From positions 558,001 through 622,000 of the forward strand of contig JAUICM010000002.1 in the NCBI GenBank assembly GCA_030427885.1: a stretch of DNA of 64,000 nucleotides. Direction: 5' to 3'. Shown here in pieces: positions 51,582 to 63,930 of this stretch; position 1 is the first letter of the stretch; the number at the start of each line of letters is the position of its first letter. Source of the stretch: Rhodothermia bacterium (lineage in GTDB: Bacteria > Bacteroidota > Rhodothermia > Balneolales > Balneolaceae). The notes below the pieces were generated by a model that was not told where the DNA came from, ran no database searches, and saw only the letters and a list, made by a program, of their open reading frames with translations. Made by a program: the position numbers and the translations under genes.

Positions 51582-51636
51582 GCACCCGTAGCTCAGTCCC
51601 GGTATTCCGGGAAGTACCTGACTACAAATCAGTATG
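51582..51636 (+). pseudogene. Partial, damaged tRNA-Arg copy
   Basis: The first half of the tRNA at 51661 is repeated: GCACCCGTAGCTCA, then a rearranged D-arm (CCCGGTATTCCGGG, a new hairpin), then an anticodon arm CTGACTACAAATCAG with loop CTACAAA in place of CTACGAA. There is no variable loop, T-arm or 3' acceptor strand. Probably a recombination scar at an integration site. Confidence 0.7.
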
Positions 51637-51660: not shown

Positions 51661-51734
51661 GCACCCGTAGCTCAACTGGATAGAGTACCTGACTACGAAT
51701 CAGGCGGTTACAAGTTCGAATCTTGTCGGGTGTA
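51661..51734 (+). tRNA. tRNA-Arg (ACG)
   Basis: A complete cloverleaf: acceptor GCACCCG/CGGGTGT, D-arm GCTC...GAGT, anticodon stem CCTGA/TCAGG with loop CTACGAA (anticodon ACG), T-arm ACAAG-TTCGAAT-CTTGT, discriminator A. CCA is not encoded. tRNA-Arg genes are common targets of tyrosine integrases, and integrase remnants lie 6-9 kb to the right. Confidence 0.95.
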
Positions 51735-51791
51735 CTTAATAATTAACAGCAATTTATAGTAAATATTTATACAAGCTATTTATCGCTGTTT

Positions 51792-52673
51792 ATGTTTGGG
51801 GACCACATAGGGACTACAAATCTATCTAGTATTACTTTTCTTTTACTCATATTCGCTAGATATTCAAGGGTGGACAAATCTTTAAAAATAGATAAAATCA
51901 TAAAGATTTTAGGTGATCGAGTTGATAATCAATTCGAATACATAACAACAAACCTATCTCTTAAAGAAAGAGTTGTGAATCCATATCATCGTTTTAATGA
52001 TGATATTTTGGGTGATCAACAAGATCCACAACAAATCAATTTTTATACTTCGAATGGTTTTTTTAATTACAGCAATAATCTAACAAAAAACACATTACTC
52101 GAGATTTCTGTGCCTGCAGGTTACAAATTAAGTCAAATTAAAACTGACCTGCGATTCGTCACATATTTTATTCTTTTAAATAAACCGAATAAAAAAAATC
52201 GCCTTCGCTATATATACCATACCTCAATCGATCAAATATTTGATTTATCTGGTTATTTAGTTGAAGACTATAATAACCAACTTTATTCTGAAATAAGAGT
52301 TGCATCAACTGATGCAAAAAAAAGGCTTGATATAGCTTTTCAACACCATTCATTTCAAAAAAATCTATCCAATGCTAAGCCTAAAAAAACAACAGAGGTA
52401 AGGACTAGATACAAAGAATTTTTTAGGGATATAATTACCAAGAAAATTAAATCTAATTCTGCATTTAGTATGTCTTTAGAGAAGATTAACGGAACTGAAC
52501 TGGATAAAGAAGTAAAAATATTTAGCGCTGGCAAGGTTTTTATACCTTCTCATATTTTTAAAATCTGTAGCTCCACCTATTGTGGCGATTTTCCTTTTAT
52601 ACATGAAGATACATTTAGGGATATTTTTGATGAAGTATCCGCTGAAATAGCTAGGGAAAAAAGGGGGAAATAA
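51792..52673 (+). CDS. Hypothetical protein of the accessory region
   Basis: 293 residues, no recognised domain. The first ten residues (MFGDHIGTTN) come from a tRNA-proximal tract with the partly repeated GGGGACCACATAGGGACTAC, so the true start may be later; a GTG near 51868 is possible. The protein is rich in Lys, Asn and Ile and lacks Trp and membrane segments. First rightward gene after the tRNA. Confidence 0.55.
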   Translation: MFGDHIGTTNLSSITFLLLIFARYSRVDKSLKIDKIIKILGDRVDNQFEYITTNLSLKERVVNPYHRFNDDILGDQQDPQQINFYTSNGFFNYSNNLTKNTLLEISVPAGYKLSQIKTDLRFVTYFILLNKPNKKNRLRYIYHTSIDQIFDLSGYLVEDYNNQLYSEIRVASTDAKKRLDIAFQHHSFQKNLSNAKPKKTTEVRTRYKEFFRDIITKKIKSNSAFSMSLEKINGTELDKEVKIFSAGKVFIPSHIFKICSSTYCGDFPFIHEDTFRDIFDEVSAEIAREKRGK

Positions 52674-52757: not shown

Positions 52758-52958
52758 ATGCCAATCTTAAAGACCAGAATCATTCGACCTAAGGAACTCA
52801 GCGAAATTCTCGGAGTTTCCAGAACAACTCTCTGGAGAATGCAGAATAGAGGTAATCTTCCTAACTGCATTCGTATATCAGCTGGAGCTGTAGGGTGGAT
52901 TGAGTCTGATATAGAAAATTGGCTTAAAGCAAAAAAGGCTGGAAAGTCCAGCTTTTAG
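52758..52958 (+). CDS. AlpA-like excisionase/regulator
   Basis: 66 residues. MerR-like winged helix: RPKELSEILGVSRTTLWRMQNRGNLPNCIRIS, ending VGWIESDIENWLKAKK. This is the form of phage AlpA/Cox-type regulators that act in excision or integrase control in satellites and islands. All its Trp codons are TGG and its stop is TAG, so it is not part of the recoded module. Confidence 0.88.
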   Translation: MPILKTRIIRPKELSEILGVSRTTLWRMQNRGNLPNCIRISAGAVGWIESDIENWLKAKKAGKSSF

Positions 52959-52984
52959 CTTTGCTCACAACATGGAGCTATTAT

Positions 52985-53356
52985 ATGCCCCGAATTGAAA
53001 ACATTACATATAAAACTGTAACTAAAGTCTTTTTACGCACAAAAGACTCAGAAATGGCTGATGAACATCTTGCTACAATTACTGTAGATGTTCCCGATCC
53101 AGAAAAATATCACTTTGATATTATTGAGTGGTTCCATCATGAACTAAAACGAAAGTTTCCAGAACAAATTCAAGAAATCTCTCTGGAAGATATAGATGAA
53201 AACGAGCTTTACTACCAATCTGAACATTTAGCAATCGTAGAACGTGAGGATAGTAAAGAACTAATTTATTTGGACGGGCGATTTACAGGAAATCTACAAA
53301 AACTCGAACAGAACAAATGGATGGAGGCCTTAGAAGAACGGAGTAATACTCAATAA
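52985..53356 (+). CDS. Hypothetical accessory protein
   Basis: 123 residues from the ATG at 52985, preceded by GGAG at a suitable distance; the frame extends to a TTG at 52961. Acidic and Glu/Leu-rich, with DIIEWFHHELKRKFPEQIQEI and a strand-rich C-terminal part. No family recognised. It lies 26 bases after the AlpA-like gene and uses normal TGG codons. Confidence 0.6.
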   Translation: MPRIENITYKTVTKVFLRTKDSEMADEHLATITVDVPDPEKYHFDIIEWFHHELKRKFPEQIQEISLEDIDENELYYQSEHLAIVEREDSKELIYLDGRFTGNLQKLEQNKWMEALEERSNTQ

Positions 53357-54063: not shown

Positions 54064-54528
54064 CTATGAGGTTATTTTCGGATTCATTGTAATAGGTTTA
54101 AAAAACATTATCAATTCGTCCAACCTATTTTCTGAAATACCTTCCCCATTATAAAATCTGTCTTTCATTACTAATTCCACTGGTAAATAGTTCTGAATAC
54201 ACTTCTGAAATTCGTTAAACACTTTATCTTCGGATTGAATAGCTAAAAATTCGTTACAGTACTTCCCGATTTCTGAAGGAAGTATAGATGAATTCATCAG
54301 TCAATCCTTATCGATATTAAAAGTACTACCTAAAGAATGTAGGAATTCGTACTTCGGATTATATATTCGGCCCAGGTGATAGATCTCCGATATATACCCT
54401 TTCACCACTCCTAAGCTTTTTGCAAATTTTTGGTTATTGCAACCCACCAAATAATGGATGAGAATCACCTTCTTTTGAAGACAGATTGAAGGTCAGGTTA
54501 GTTTTTTTAAGTTAATTATTGTTGCCAT
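54064..54528 (-). CDS. XRE-type regulator with two in-frame TGA codons
   Basis: From the ATG at 54528 (AGGA about four bases upstream) the frame runs 154 codons to a TAG at 54064, interrupted only by TGA at codons 12 and 76. Residues 24-78 resemble an XRE helix-turn-helix: FAKSLGVVKGYISEI, then NPKYEFLHSLGSTFNI, then D-TGA-L-M. XRE proteins very often have DWL at exactly that place, so the second TGA stands for Trp. The recognition region has one extra residue (YHLGRIYNP), so some decay is possible. It is divergent from the primase-helicase gene and probably represses it. Read with the standard code this would be a pseudogene. Confidence 0.6.
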
Positions 54529-54575: not shown

Positions 54576-54619
54576 TTAGTCAAATTATTTGAACGTTTTT
54601 TGAAGATTCCCTTGACTAA
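54576..54619. promoter_or_regulatory. Operator-like inverted repeat in the divergent region
   Basis: TTAGTCAA (54576-54583) and TTGACTAA (54612-54619) are perfect inverted copies separated by 28 bases, midway between the divergent XRE-like and primase-helicase genes. Position and symmetry fit a binding site for the XRE-like protein. Confidence 0.45.
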
Positions 54620-54687
54620 GTTCTCTATAATGAATAGAGTATAAGTAGGTTATAAATAATGGTACCCTTTCATCAAAAAAGTTAAAA

Positions 54688-57168
54688 ATGAAATTCGAAT
54701 TCTCCCTTCACCCCCAATCTTTTTCTGAAAAACCTAGTGGCTCCTGAGTCGCTACAATCAGCAAAAACCTGCGTACCGTAGAAGCGGATTCCCCAGCCGA
54801 TCTACTTAATGCTGTAGAGCAGGGGCAATCCTGATCTCCCGCCGTTTTTAACGGCACCCGAAATAATACCAACTGAGTTAAGCAGTCGAACTTAGCCTTA
54901 GATTTTGACTGCGGAATTACTCCATATGAAGTTATTCAACGATTAAAAAGCTACGGCATAATACCGACTTGCTGATATCCTACCTTTAGCGATACTCCAA
55001 GAAAACGAAAATTTAGACTGGTGTTATTTTTAGATACAGAGATCACGGACTTGCCCACCCGTAATTTTTTAATGAACGGGTTAATTGCGCTGTTCCCCGA
55101 AGTAGATAAAGCCTGTAAAGACCCAGCTCGCTTATTTTATGGCACTAATAAAAAAGGGGAACTTCTTAACCCAACTCCAATCTCTGTTGAGTTGCTTACC
55201 AGCGTACTCGAAAGTGATAAGTTAAAAGGTGGAGGCCGGTTACGCAAGATTAACCCCAAAACCCCCGGTGCAATAGGAGCTCGAAAACATGGCTTTTCAG
55301 CGGCTTCCTATAGTATATATATAGAAGACCGCTCAAAAGCCACAAATCAGCAAAAGCTTGCCTACTATGAGATGCTTAAACGCAATAAAAGGAACAAATG
55401 CGTTGATAGAAAAAAACTGGCTTCCCGAGTCCGGATCTTTGATGAGTTTCTCCATGGCAATAAGCGATGTACGTATGCACAGCTTCTTGGAATCGCTCAG
55501 AATCTAGCATGAATGCAAGGCGGTCAGCAGCTTTATGAGCAGCGACTGAAGGAGTTCAATCGCCATCATAAAGGTACGAATCCTTATCCCAACGATGGAC
55601 GGTTTGAGCTGATGAGGGTGATTAGTAAGTATAATGCTCAGGTGGAAACCGCTTACTTTCCTCAGCGCTTACTGCTGTTTTCACCATACCCAGAGGATCA
55701 CCGCTACCATAATCTTCTCACTGCAGAGCGGGATATTTTTCAAGGGGTGGAGGTCCTCAACCCTCCTGCTCCCATTTCTTTAACCAATGCTGAGCAGCTT
55801 TTTGATTATGAGTTTAACAACGCCTTAGACTGCCTCAGCGATGACATCTTTATCTTTAAGCTTCCCACTGGAATTGGAAAGTCTCGACGCATTAAAGAGC
55901 TGGATGAGGTCCTGCTTGCCTTTCCTACCAATGAGCTAAAGCTAGAGCAATTTCAGAGCAGAACCGAACATAACAATGCACATTTGACTCCCCCGTTCCC
56001 GGTATTTCAGGATGCACAGCTTAATGAATCGTTAGAAAGGTTGTTAAAAGCTGGATTTATAAAACAGGTCCATAGCATACTTTGAGACCTAAATAATGGG
56101 GCCTGTGGTGGCGTGATAGATCAGCTAAGAGCCCAAGACTATGTCCGCAAGATCCAGCAGATCAAAAAAAAGTATGAAACGGTGTTTACAACCCATAGCC
56201 GAGCTATCCATACCCAGTTTGAGCATGATACTGTGATCTTTGATGAGGACCCACTAGCCTTGCTTAACGATGTAGATACCCTAAGAATTGCTGACCTGAA
56301 AAAGATCGGAAATCAGAGTATTTCCAGCATGTTTGCAAACACATCAACCACATTGCTAACGCTTCAGCGTTATTTAGAGGGAGTACCTGCAGGTCAGGTA
56401 TATACCCTTCCAGAAACGTACCGCACTGATATTTCATCTGAGGCTTACACTGTAATGCATACCGAAGGGGTGGATAGCAATATCGTTAAGTTTCTGGGTT
56501 CCAACTACTTCTATAAAGATGAAAATAACCGTGATTTAATTCATTTTGTGAAGGCCGAAGACTTACCGGCAGACAAAAAGATCATTATTATGAGCGCAAC
56601 GGTTCCTGCTGATATCTATAAGAAATTATACGGGGACAGGGTCCAGATTATTGACATTACAGAGGTGTCTCATGCGGGTAGGATCACCCAACATACCAAG
56701 TATTCTTACTCACGAAATTCTCTCGCAAAACATACCGATGAATTAAATCAGAAACTTTCGCCCTACCCTACTATTACTTTTAAAAGCTTCAACAAACAGA
56801 TAAAAGGAGCAGCGCCTGACATGTGATTTGGGAATTGCTCGGGGTATAACCAGTACACTGGAAAATCAATTAATGTAGTAGGGACTCCTCACCGTCACAA
56901 CGCCCAGTATTTATTGCTCGCTCAGGTCATGGGGATTGATATCAATCAGGTAGACAAGACTTTTACCATGCAAACGGTAGAATGGAATGGATTCAGGTTT
57001 AGCTTTAATACCTTCTCTGAGGAATCTCTTCGTGAGATTCAGTTAAGCTTAATCGAAAGTGATTTAATTCAAGCTGCTGGTAGAGCCCGGGCACTGCGGG
57101 AAGATGTTGAAGTTCATATTTATTCTAACCTGCCACTCAGAATCTCACAGCAGTTTATCAATGATTAA
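54688..57168 (+). CDS. Primase/SF2-helicase-like replication protein with seven in-frame TGA codons
   Basis: One frame of 826 codons runs from ATG 54688 to TAA 57166-57168 with no frameshift. Its only interruptions are seven TGA codons, at residues 20, 49, 63, 96, 275, 466 and 713. Only one TGG occurs (residue 766). Read as Trp, the TGAs give a normal Trp content (8 in 826). The N-terminal part has LALDFD at 70-74 and YPTFSDT...KFRLVLFLD, like plasmid/phage primases with an acidic catalytic pair. The C-terminal part is an SF2 helicase: LPTGIGKS (392-399, Walker A), VIFDEDP (Walker B), MSAT (635-638), QAAGRAR (795-801). No TAA or TAG falls inside. A standard-code pipeline would split it into fragments. 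Confidence 0.8.
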
Positions 57169-57233: not shown

Positions 57234-57779
57234 ATGGAGAAAACCATGCAAACTAGAATTGTAAAATTTAAACCAACAACTAATACCATACTTAACAATA
57301 CCCCTTACTATCGGGATCTGTTAGACCAAGACTATCTCGGTATATTTGTATATGCTTCCCCACAACTATTGGATATAGGAGGTATGCATACTCCTACGCA
57401 TTCATTTTACAGCTGATATCCAATCGCCAGTAATACCTACGATTTCAAGAATTATAAATCGTACTTACAGGAAAAGCTACCTTTAAATAATGATGGAAGA
57501 GTAAAACGATGCATCAACAAACTTAATGAAGCTCACCTGAATAGGTTTTACGTTACAGGAGAGATTACTGACATCATTCAACGTAGCGGGCAGATTATAG
57601 CTGTTGAAGCGTATATCGAAGACATAGGAAGCGTTGCTTTGATCAATCAATCTAACAGTCTCGTTCGTACGTTTGCTGGGAACCAACTATACAAACCATC
57701 TATTATCGGTCACGCCAGTAACGGTTGGTGTAAACTAAAAGATGCTCAGCATATGATCTATCAATTCACCGATAAATAA
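57234..57779 (+). CDS. Unknown protein with one in-frame TGA codon
   Basis: From ATG 57234 the frame runs 181 codons to TAA at 57777-57779. A second ATG at 57246 has GGAGA five bases ahead and may be the real start. One TGA interrupts it at codon 61 (HSFYS-TGA-YPIAS); the frame continues unshifted for 120 more codons and has one TGG (GWCKLKD). The second half, with FYVTGEITDIIQRSGQIIAVEAYIEDIGSVALI, looks like a folded beta-rich domain. No family recognised. It follows the primase-helicase gene by 65 bases. Confidence 0.65.
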
Positions 57780-58079: not shown

Positions 58080-58165
58080 AACAACAACATATAGTTAAAA
58101 AGACTACTAAGCGCTATGCAGATTTGCTGAATATGGATATTAGTGAGCAGGTGGGAGAGCTTTGA
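58080..58165 (+). pseudogene. Tyrosine-integrase C-terminal remnant 1
   Basis: The frame reads KKTTKRYADLLNMDISEQVGEL then TGA. KTTxRYADL holds the catalytic Tyr of tyrosine recombinases. There is no upstream catalytic domain. Nearly the same tail recurs at 60627-60788. Confidence 0.75.
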
Positions 58166-60626: not shown

Positions 60627-60788
60627 ATGATACTAGGTCGAAGCAGAGTACCAATTTATACTGTTCAACGCTGGCTACGACATGCAGATGTTAAGACTAC
60701 TCAGCGATATGCGGACTTGCTGAACATGGATATTAGTGAGCAAATTGGGAGGGTATTTAGAAATTTTGAATCCAATTCATTTTCTTGA
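60627..60788 (+). pseudogene. Tyrosine-integrase C-terminal remnant 2
   Basis: An ATG-started frame of 53 codons encodes VQRWLRHADVKTTQRYADLLNMDISEQIGRVF and ends in TGA. RHADVKTTQRYADLL contains the last catalytic His and the Tyr of tyrosine recombinases; the rest of the enzyme is absent. It shares YADLLNMDISEQ with remnant 1, so the two come from closely related integrases. Confidence 0.8.
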
Positions 60789-60820: not shown

Positions 60821-61216
60821 TTACACCTCTATATTTTTTGGAGAAGTACCAGTATCGGAACACCAAACAACCAATCCATTTTTAACCCAAAAATGACTTT
60901 TGCACCCTTTATTCTGCCATACTGATGGAAATAAAGTTGGCCTATTGTTCTTTGATACTTCAATTGTCCAATTTGGATACTTATCCTTAGTCATCGGTAG
61001 AGATATAACTGTATTACATCCACATGGACATTTAAAGAGAGCCCAATAAGGTTCTCCTTCATAAATCACAATGTAAAAACGCTTTCTTTGTATTTTGTCG
61101 TTTTTTGGTGTGATACCGACAAAATGGGTTTTTTTGTAATAGACCTTCCTCTGCTTATTTCTACCAAAAAGTGAATGAAGCTTACTCCTAATCTGATGAA
61201 AAAAATTAACTAACAT
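60821..61216 (-). CDS. DUF6527-like protein of the ubiquitination-like operon (BubE-like)
   Basis: 131 residues. Two Cys-rich motifs, KCPCGCNTVISL and NKGCKSHFWVKNGLVVWCSD, with PTLFPSV between, match my recollection of the DUF6527 family found at the end of bacterial Ubl-E2-E1 operons. In that work such proteins were reported as serine proteases acting on Ubl conjugates with a Ser-His dyad; here SHFW is the obvious candidate pair. It overlaps the E1-like gene by 11 bases. It may remove the ubiquitin-like protein from targets. Confidence 0.75.
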   Translation of the reverse strand: MLVNFFHQIRSKLHSLFGRNKQRKVYYKKTHFVGITPKNDKIQRKRFYIVIYEGEPYWALFKCPCGCNTVISLPMTKDKYPNWTIEVSKNNRPTLFPSVWQNKGCKSHFWVKNGLVVWCSDTGTSPKNIEV

Positions 61217-62669
61217 TTTGAGGTATCTTCCCTAATTGAGGGATACCTAAACGGTAGGTTTGTTCCCCTTTTTCTAATAGTATATTTGACCCACAATATA
61301 GGCAGTCTTTGTCCTGTACTGGCATATTGCTATGTATGTGAAGATGAATAAAATCAATCCATATATTATCCTGCCTCAAGTCAGAAGGGACCTTTCGAAA
61401 ACAGTTAATTAGGTTCATCAAAGTTGCTACAGCATTATTAGCAGTGATACTCGTGAATGGACCTATTCCAGGTGATTGAACGGTCCCTCCAATTATATAA
61501 TACTCTTCTTCTAGTACTTTGGAATCCAATTCTAACAACTCTGGATTTTCTTTCAATGTTGTTTCGTTATAAAGCTTCTGATCTGTTATTACTCTTTGAC
61601 ATCTTAAACAGGCTCCGCTTTCTGGAAGTATGCAACTCACCCTTCCTTTCTGACTTCTTAACTCTGGGTTGCCTTCCACATTTTCTTCGACGTTACCAGC
61701 CATACCCGAATCAATTAGTACCTGAGAATAATATGAATAAGCCTGGTTTAAATAATCTCTACCCTGAACATCATCAGTACAACCAAAAACAACATCAGCA
61801 CTTGATAACGCATCAATAGATAAACTAGATTCACCTAAGTATTCAGGAATTGGATATACAATAACATTCAATCCTAAACTATTAATATAATGGGCTAATG
61901 CTTCAGCTTTTTTCTTTCCAATGTCATTTTCAGTATACCCATGCACACGATTCATATTTGTTTTATCGAGCGCGTCCCCATCAATAATTATTAACTCTCC
62001 TATCCCAGTTCTCGCCAACATAGTTGCCGTGGGAGATCCTGTTCCGCCCAAGCCTACAACAGCAACTCTAAGTGACTGCAATTTTTCATTGAATGGTTTT
62101 CCAAAAGCAACTTCTTGTCTCTTAAGGGACTCCTGAGTTTCATCATGTGTTTCAAATCCATAGATTTCTATTTTATCAGAAAGAACACTTACATGCCTTA
62201 TTTTTTGAAATCTTTCAGGGTCTTTTCCGTGTCTAATTCTTGCTAGCCAATTTTCATCAACAAGAATCATGGAAATCAAAAAAGAGTTAATTCCATTGCA
62301 CCTACTTAGACCATGTAATATGTTTTGCTCATTTACATCATCCCGTACTGAGAATTCATTAATCCCACTCGGATGATTATGTACAAATCCTAATTCTAGT
62401 CCCTCTTGTTCACATCGAAAATAAATCTTAGGAAACTTTCGCATATTAATTTTGAAGTGGGTCTTTGAGCTTTCCAAAACCCAATCCTTATTCATTTCAA
62501 TAATATCGACAGCAAGAAATCTATCGGATCTTTCTAAATTTTTGATACTTCTAGATATTCTTCGAAAAAGTATAATTGCACCTCGTTCATGGCTATCCGG
62601 GTGACCTAAAAGCCAATCTTTGAGCCTTTTTGCATGGCTCCCAAGTAATGTAATCCGAGGGCCTCTCAT
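61206..62669 (-). CDS. JAB-E1 fusion: deubiquitinase-like metalloprotease plus ThiF-type E1
   Basis: 487 residues. Residues 1-170 are a JAB/JAMM metalloprotease with Glu28, HNHPSG (His97, His99, Ser101) and Asp110/111. Residues 195-400 are an E1/ThiF adenylation domain with VVGLGGTGSP (from 205), IIDGD (229-232) and NMNR (238-241). Two CxxC pairs (CLRC and CLYC) could bind zinc. The enzyme should adenylate the C-terminus of the Ubl encoded upstream, and its JAB part could process or reverse conjugates. Its ATG overlaps the E2-like stop codon (ATGA). Confidence 0.92.
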   Translation of the reverse strand: MRGPRITLLGSHAKRLKDWLLGHPDSHERGAIILFRRISRSIKNLERSDRFLAVDIIEMNKDWVLESSKTHFKINMRKFPKIYFRCEQEGLELGFVHNHPSGINEFSVRDDVNEQNILHGLSRCNGINSFLISMILVDENWLARIRHGKDPERFQKIRHVSVLSDKIEIYGFETHDETQESLKRQEVAFGKPFNEKLQSLRVAVVGLGGTGSPTATMLARTGIGELIIIDGDALDKTNMNRVHGYTENDIGKKKAEALAHYINSLGLNVIVYPIPEYLGESSLSIDALSSADVVFGCTDDVQGRDYLNQAYSYYSQVLIDSGMAGNVEENVEGNPELRSQKGRVSCILPESGACLRCQRVITDQKLYNETTLKENPELLELDSKVLEEEYYIIGGTVQSPGIGPFTSITANNAVATLMNLINCFRKVPSDLRQDNIWIDFIHLHIHSNMPVQDKDCLYCGSNILLEKGEQTYRLGIPQLGKIPQNVS

Positions 62670-63082
62670 TTATTTGAGTCCGGGTTTTTCAATGACCATT
62701 CCACTCGGTCGAGAATTTTCTGAACATTATCTACTTTGGCTTTCCAAGAATTTGTCGCATAATGACGTGACCATCTACAAAATTCTTTTCCCTCATAATT
62801 TATAACGTATTTGCATCCCAATTCTCCACCCCGTGGTATAGGTTTACCATCGGATCGTTTTAATACTGGGAATGTCCAGAACATATTATTTCCAGCTGTA
62901 TTGTAGTTATTTGGTATTTTTACCAATATTTCTACTTCAGACAATGTTTTATTATCGTATTCATAAAAACCTTTTTTCAATGGAAAGTTTTTTATAATCA
63001 AAAATTTTTTCTCTTCATCCTCTGAATATTCTAAACCGGAATCTCGAAGAATATCATAATCCTCATCAAGTAATAAAGCCAT
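62666..63082 (-). CDS. E2-like ubiquitin-conjugating protein, prokaryotic family E
   Basis: 138 residues. Matches the Prok-E2_E pattern: LEYSEDEEKKFLIIKNFPL, VEILVKIPNNYNTAGNNMFWTFPVL, then EFCRWSRHYATNSWKAKVDNVQKILDRVEWSL. The FCRWSRH stretch is the likely active site. Bub-type E2 proteins have been proposed to use an oxyester (serine) rather than a thioester intermediate, so the Ser in CRWSRH is a candidate. Overlaps both the Ubl and E1 genes, showing tight coupling. Confidence 0.85.
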   Translation of the reverse strand: MALLLDEDYDILRDSGLEYSEDEEKKFLIIKNFPLKKGFYEYDNKTLSEVEILVKIPNNYNTAGNNMFWTFPVLKRSDGKPIPRGGELGCKYVINYEGKEFCRWSRHYATNSWKAKVDNVQKILDRVEWSLKNPDSNK

Positions 63083-63315
63083 CAGCCTGGAGTTGAGTCT
63101 GCTTGTTGGTAGTAAAACCGTTCTATGCCTTTTTCACTTAAATCAATCGTATCGCTATCTGCCACTAGTTCGCCTGGACTCCCTTTACGCTTAATAAATA
63201 AGTCCATATTCTCCGGAATACCAGGAGGAATAGCTCTCACTTGTGCTCCAGTAATAAACTGCTCTTCCCAAATATGCGTTTGGTTTTCAATTTTAAAAGT
63301 ATATTTCTTAGCCAT
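63082..63315 (-). CDS. Ubiquitin-like protein (multiubiquitin-domain family, BubA-like)
   Basis: 77 residues, one beta-grasp domain. KKYTFKIENQTHIWEEQFITGAQVRAIPPG, MDLFIKRKG and DTIDLSEKGIERFYY follow the Multiubiquitin pattern (ITGxxxR, then the VDLSxxGxExF ending). The C-terminus is STPG, so it ends in a glycine that E1 could activate without processing. Only one copy of the domain is present. TGA is its stop, overlapping the ATG of the E2-like gene. Confidence 0.88.
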   Translation of the reverse strand: MAKKYTFKIENQTHIWEEQFITGAQVRAIPPGIPENMDLFIKRKGSPGELVADSDTIDLSEKGIERFYYQQADSTPG

Positions 63316-63528: not shown

Positions 63529-63930
63529 TTATCGTTTTTGAGTTAGTGTTAACAGTAGTCCCGTGCCAACAAGTAAAGCTGTTGACCAACTAGCAAGTTG
63601 GGGACTCTGCGGTTTTAATGAAAAAGCATCTGTTACAAGGTGTTCGCAGTTATACTTCGTCAATTGGTATGGTTTACCTAGTCGAGAGTATGCTTTCTGA
63701 ACAGCTCTGTAACCATCCATATAAGTCTGGGGTACGGATTCTACCTTGAATTCTTTACCCCCACAAAAATCTTCCAATGTATGTTCAACCACGCGACCGT
63801 ACTTTGGAGTATTTGAGATTATGGTAGGTTGTCCTTGGTGGTAATTTCCAGTGACAATCCCAACATGCTTAATGAAGGTTTTGGGAACTGAAATGACTGT
63901 TCCTAAATGAAATTCATTAATGTTTGCCAT
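63529..63930 (-). CDS. LRAT/NlpC-P60-like protein with C-terminal membrane helix
   Basis: 133 residues. KHVGIVTGNY places a conserved His at 22, and KYNCEHLVTDAF places Cys95 in the NCEH motif; together they define the LRAT-like permuted papain fold, which acts on acyl groups of lipids or proteins. A C-terminal hydrophobic helix (STALLVGTGLLLTLTQ) suggests membrane anchoring. First gene of the leftward ubiquitination-like operon as far as the window shows; it could be an effector. Its start (63930) is 70 bases from the window edge. Confidence 0.8.
   Translation of the reverse strand: MANINEFHLGTVISVPKTFIKHVGIVTGNYHQGQPTIISNTPKYGRVVEHTLEDFCGGKEFKVESVPQTYMDGYRAVQKAYSRLGKPYQLTKYNCEHLVTDAFSLKPQSPQLASWSTALLVGTGLLLTLTQKR

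Follow-up and report, generated by a model that had tools for sequence, protein, structure and literature searches.

Recoded bacteriophages that use code 15 or code 4 have been described (PMC10879173, citing Borges et al., 2022): in hosts with the standard code, these phages translate a stop codon as an amino acid, for the most part in only some of their genes, and a function in timing has been proposed for this. They encode their own suppressor tRNAs and it is chiefly their structural and lysis genes that are recoded. The elements of Balneolales considered here differ from them in being small and integrated, in having a recoded replication operon and in the lack of any suppressor tRNA found in cis or in the host. 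Another route, the decoding of UGA by a tRNA-Trp(CCA) with a 4-bp stem (PMC13092985), likewise yields UGA as tryptophan without a UCA tRNA. In organisms with genome-wide table 4 (Mycoplasma, Zinderia and others) UGA also means tryptophan, as it appears to in the Balneolales elements, whereas the Balneolales host and many of the element genes end with UGA, RF2 is present and no UCA tRNA was found. P4- and PICI-like satellites and integrative elements are small and integrated and carry an integrase, an AlpA-type regulator, a primase and recombination genes. The Balneolales elements hold, piecewise, the same kinds of genes, with virion genes unrecognised, and their dependence on a helper is unproven; to our knowledge, the trigger in known satellites is a helper protein and not an altered codon meaning. 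One of the two primases concerned shares a VapE-like_dom and an NrS-1 HBD with NrS-1-type primase-polymerase/VapE proteins and differs from them by its three to six in-frame TGA codons, the phage relatives examined outside the order being in standard code. In the one literature library that was searched, no paper joins Balneola to genetic code and stop codon, or joins phage satellite to stop codon and to suppressor tRNA.

The locus lies in a window of 64,000 nucleotides (the whole stretch of DNA that was analysed) from a Balneolales genome, in which the following features were recognised:

51661..51735, + strand: tRNA-Arg(ACG), possible integration site
51792..52673, + strand: unknown gene adjoining the tRNA, standard code (cluster c15; common to two other recoded elements)
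52758..52958, + strand: AlpA/excisionase-type regulator, standard code (Phage_AlpA, 1e-10)
52961..53356, + strand: unknown gene, standard code (cluster c16; in the same two elements as the c15 gene)
54064..54528, - strand: divergent repressor-like HTH gene with two in-frame TGA (weak HTH_19 match, E 0.0037)
54612..54640, + strand: inferred sigma70-like promoter TTGACT-17-TAGAGT upstream of PRIM1, read from sequence
54688..57168, + strand: PRIM1, primase-helicase-like replication gene of 826 codons with seven in-frame TGA, ending in TAA
54832..54834, + strand: putative lock codon, codon 49 of PRIM1 (alignment column 52), TGA in 8/8 full-length copies
57234..57779, + strand: orfC, 181 codons, one in-frame TGA at 57414, next gene after PRIM1
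58100..58165, + strand: tyrosine recombinase tail (KTTKRYADLLNMDISEQVGEL), read from sequence

Just upstream of the tRNA-Arg(ACG), at about 51582-51632, lies a decayed partial copy of the same tRNA, perhaps the trace of an earlier integration. The recombinase tail at 58100-58165 is probably an old element end, and it is nearly identical to a second tyrosine recombinase C-terminal tail on the + strand (60627-60760), which suggests two old element ends in tandem; of an integrase, the window element holds only such recombinase remnants. Further along, on the minus strand, 61206-63315 is a bacterial ubiquitin-type operon, possibly with a role in defence: it encodes a ThiF-like E1 whose N-terminus is JAB-like, together with a small partner and what by eye is a ubiquitin-like protein, and it has PADLOC E1-E2 matches. 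A small protein encoded at 63529-63930 (minus strand) has, by eye, the appearance of an LRAT/NlpC-type papain-like fold.

A sequence-only reading of this DNA had described seven in-frame stops in PRIM1, all TGA, without TAA, TAG or frameshift, and translation of 54688-57168 agrees: the TGA codons are numbers 20, 49, 63, 96, 275, 466 and 713 (positions 54745, 54832, 54874, 54973, 55510, 56083 and 56824), and no internal TAA, TAG or frameshift was met. The motifs LPTGIGKS, DEDP, SAT and QAAGRARA do stay in one frame across the breaks, as that reading had it, and the helicase motifs, recognised by eye, are of SF2 type. The N-terminus matches PHROG primases (phrog_25531, 2.6e-20; phrog_9765, 1.1e-5), a Pfam scan of PRIM1 gave no match, and an AlphaFold model was poor (pLDDT 45) and was set aside. 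A TTGAC/TAGAnT arrangement similar to that of the presumed PRIM1 promoter can also be read ahead of the recoded primase in several other elements. The proposal that recoding is confined to one module holds in so far as a mobile module sits in a standard-code host, but the recoding is wider than PRIM1, because 57234-57779 and 54064-54528 also carry in-frame TGA. In the latter gene, whose HTH_19 match fails Pfam's cut-off, the TGAs are codon 12 (54495-54493) and codon 76 (54303-54301); codon 76 sits inside NIDKD-U-LMN, at a site where Trp is usual in XRE-type repressors.

A search of 129 Balneolales genomes found seven more full-length copies of PRIM1, 46-61% identical, in six further genomes, with 5, 4, 3 (plus one TAG, in G044), 2, 2, 2 and 1 in-frame TGA; every full-length copy within the order carries in-frame TGA, and the homologues found outside it carry none. 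The codon alignment of these copies bears on what the TGAs encode. TGA and TGG exchange at Trp columns 66, 99, 278, 470, 725 and 779, and five of the seven TGA sites in the window fall at columns with TGG in relatives. Of the other two, 54832 is TGA in all copies and 54745 (codon 20) stands in a Glu/Gln column, so the earlier suggestion that the TGA sites are Trp sites applies to the Trp columns, and the TGA of codon 20 is not at a conserved Trp. In all-against-all frame comparisons, the residues aligned to TGA were TGA itself (384), Trp (236), Phe (50) and Tyr (43), others being rarer; a selenoprotein reading (UGA as Cys/Sec) was rejected, since the aligned residues are Trp and Cys is rare. 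In the second primase, four TGA columns hold Trp in 35/36 cells of nine standard-code phage homologues; this outside test is restricted to the second primase, the outside homologues of PRIM1 being too distant for it. From these comparisons of sequences there is hardly room for doubt that UGA means tryptophan in the recoded operons (primase, HTH protein and small accessory genes), as the first reading of PRIM1 had supposed from the sequence alone.

The same data leave almost nothing for the view that these are ordinary pseudogenes, to which the TAG in G044 and the recombinase remnants of the window element might point. The internal stops of the 35 recoded gene copies are all TGA except that one TAG and lie mostly at Trp columns, at least five families of genes are affected across 14 genomes, and the comparison of PRIM1 between the window and L010 (dN 0.31, dS saturated) indicates purifying selection in every section, including those after the TGAs. 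A pseudogene is thereby practically ruled out, and the argument against random decay made for the window copy is strengthened by eight TGA-bearing copies with TGA/TGG exchange. Of the marks of a pseudogene (mixed stops, frameshifts and relaxed selection), the copies showed none beyond the TAG of G044. TGAs outside Trp columns do occur (codon 20 in the window, one in L061 and some in L100) and, together with that TAG, they mean that some copies may be decaying. Editing of the mRNA had been offered as another alternative: A-to-I editing would turn UGA into UGI, read as UGG, and predicts exactly the TGA/TGG exchange at Trp that is seen. It is not excluded, but it fits the codon contexts poorly, as the contexts of the 111 sites vary and, apart from the constant 5' G, have no motif in common, and the element proteins that were scanned included no recognisable deaminase; we regard it as scarcely credible.

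Recoding is limited to certain genes. TGA terminates 40/159 neighbouring ORFs, TGG occurs 676 times in 123 neighbouring genes that were called with the standard code, and RF2 is present in 9/9 hosts tested, which bears out the statement that nearby genes use TGA as a stop. In the prfB genes (L181-L189) the frame is open over the region of the programmed frameshift of E. coli, and these hosts may be without RF2 autoregulation. Within the elements, the genes for the AAA protein, RadC, DUF932, the NGO0469-family replication protein and the integrase are often TGA-terminated; recoding is seen in the replication genes and not in the RadC, DUF932, YqaJ, integrase and helicase genes. As far as the sequences alone can tell, the recoding is thus gene-specific, with UGA meaning Trp in the replication operon and stop in the element's other genes and in the host. 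Genome-wide code 4 was rejected, UGA still being used as a stop, with RF2 present and no UCA tRNA found. Low-level reading of UGA by tRNA-Trp is known from other bacteria (PMC7918605), and several copies have just one or two TGA, so weak natural readthrough by tRNA-Trp(CCA) could be imagined as an attenuator. Up to seven TGA per gene would nevertheless leave practically no product, and the base following TGA is A at 53, G at 29, T at 19 and C at 10 of the 111 sites, so that the leaky C is not favoured; readthrough is for us a very unlikely explanation.

Recoded modules were found in 14/129 Balneolales genomes, which belong to nine genera and three families of the order, and they lie in integrated elements and comprise at least five recoded gene families, two of which are primases unrelated to each other and one an HTH gene. 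The HTH protein orfA (about 200 codons, one to three TGA) adjoins the primase in four PRIM1 elements, and a profile search found further orfA relatives in the order, most of which are shorter and carry exactly two TGA each, located at one and the same pair of Trp columns. Beside these further relatives lies the second recoded primase, unrelated to PRIM1, mostly about 670 aa long, with a VapE-like_dom match of about 1e-36. Relatives of orfC have three and four TGA (in G024 and G030), and in some elements TGA also interrupts a small gene that lies downstream of orfA. Outside Balneolales, recoding was not seen in homologues of orfA or of either primase, and it is likewise absent from viral-contig relatives of both primases, at about 25-42% identity; a search for the second primase elsewhere in the class found none. 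No relatives of the HTH gene were found in viral contigs, for which search alignment A3 was too variable to serve for a scan. A codon-usage score did not discriminate as a detector of recoded frames.

The elements are of two types. Type I elements carry a tyrosine integrase, a RepA-like helicase or an AAA/unknown pair, and the recoded primase with orfA, besides RadC, DUF932, a YqaJ/RecE-like exonuclease, an NGO0469-family protein and an HTH regulator. Type II elements, including that of the window, carry AlpA (in the window), two unknown genes, the primase and orfC. Beyond the recoded genes, no protein gene common to both types was seen. Integrase, AlpA-type/HTH regulators, primase, RecE-like protein and RadC are found piecewise across the elements, and the scan of element proteins revealed nothing recognisable as a virion structural or conjugation gene (element borders are unmapped); such a gene set fits a satellite-like life. 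Several Type I elements have iteron-like repeats in the primase-orfA gap (L094, 8640-8877, with five copies of TACACCCACCTA; L096, 2054-2470), which are possible replication origins, and orfA may therefore, by inference, be an origin-binding protein. On the contig that bears the most diverged primase copy (G011), group II intron RNA domains were seen at L055 9479-9766.

The position of the TGAs suggests a function for them as stops. Column 52 is TGA in all eight PRIM1 copies and is the sole TGA of copy L015, whereas a single codon is shared by all eight at only 4/88 other invariant two-fold columns, and the agreement of synonymous codons falls to about 0.5 against the most distant copy. Permutation of TGA among the Trp codons of each copy gave P = 2.6e-4 for column 52; this test ignores the kinship of the copies, which synonymous saturation covers only partly. 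Over all families, the first 65 codons include a TGA in 32/35 recoded copies, where 26.4 would be expected (P = 0.005), and two of the three misses (L013 and L014) were trimmed by the script to a later Met and have the column-52 TGA. Since column 52 has stayed TGA with synonymous sites saturated, it has probably been kept as a lock, and retention of an early stop where TGG would do suggests its importance as a stop. It is likely, if not secure, that the early UGA is maintained by selection as a putative lock, though the signal could partly be shared ancestry of related copies. The expression switch that the sequence-only reading had listed as an alternative gains support from this conservation and is compatible with UGA as Trp. 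Without a lock, TGA would merely drift in genes expressed only in UGA-decoding settings; in the two primases and the HTH gene, 36-52% of the Trp codons are TGA, and the A-ending share of Lys, Glu and Gln codons in the same genes is somewhat higher (55-70%), a usage that drift could give. The invariance of column 52 and the N-terminal placing of the TGAs speak against drift alone, which we hold to be improbable.

A decoder for these codons was not identified, nor was a helper phage. The proposed tRNA-Trp(UCA) did not appear in the host or its relatives by ARAGORN, Rfam and motif searches. All 39 tRNA matches in the genome of the window are accounted for with ARAGORN and none has a UCA anticodon; the sole tRNA-Trp found has CCA, a 5-bp anticodon stem (CTGGT/ACCAG) and no A24, and decoding by a 4-bp-stem tRNA-Trp(CCA) was rejected for the window host. 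No UCA-anticodon tRNA was found in eight genomes with a looser motif pattern (a subset of matches inspected) or in 129 genomes with a tighter one (the inspected matches were not tRNAs). Nor did the element flanks yield a UCA tRNA when scanned with ARAGORN and Rfam, and an Rfam scan of the elements at permissive thresholds gave known or chance matches only. These searches are blind to oddly shaped tRNAs and to plasmids or phages missing from the assemblies. UCA-anticodon tRNAs do occur in environmental IMG/VR phage contigs (L222, L225-L228), possibly UGA-recoding phages, and no link between these and Balneolales was found.

A native but unrecognised decoder would also make UGA tryptophan, be it a non-canonical UCA tRNA, a tRNA-Trp(CCA) with a chemical or C-to-U modification of its anticodon, or a tRNA formed at the junction of an excised circle. 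The restriction of recoding to one host order, with TGA-free homologues outside, suggests a cell trait of Balneolales and keeps such a decoder in consideration. It is the chief rival, which we nonetheless find doubtful: the 5-bp stem without A24, the intact RF2 and the use of TGA as a stop do not favour it, the two element types share no protein gene seen beyond the recoded ones, and no attachment-site repeat from which a junction tRNA could be rebuilt was found within the 20-40 kb examined. With no UCA tRNA found and outside homologues not recoded, the simplest view is of a decoder that the cell contains only at times. Whether it is supplied in trans, by a helper phage or the like, is to us an open wager, inferred without expression data. 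The best explanation that we can offer, at roughly even chances, is a replication operon in which UGA means Trp and which remains silent until something in trans provides a decoder. PRIM1 is one gene of such a recoded operon, on mobile elements that are integrated in Balneolales chromosomes. With the host code, ribosomes would stop before more than a few dozen codons had been read, which would lock the replication module; the lock would open once a UGA-decoding Trp-tRNA arrives in trans, its likeliest source being a helper phage or another invading element with a UCA suppressor tRNA, on which replication of the element would thereby come to depend. It remains a tentative idea, somewhat short of an even chance, that codon meaning itself acts in trans as a lock, so that an invader is sensed through the genetic code (with a phage or an unknown host state supplying the tRNA), or else that UGA is decoded here in a new way without a UCA tRNA.

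Previously known recoding concerns whole genomes, or phages that bring their own suppressor tRNA. Here the recoding is limited to the replication operon of integrated elements in one host order, with an early UGA that is apparently under selection and a decoder that is not visible. Standard annotation fragments the recoded replication genes, and such elements are therefore missed. Two questions become testable: whether recoding serves as a lock for regulation, and by what means a cell with the standard code reads UGA as Trp only at certain times. If the lock reading is true, these elements would gain competence for replication only once an invader or a host state supplies a UGA-decoding tRNA.
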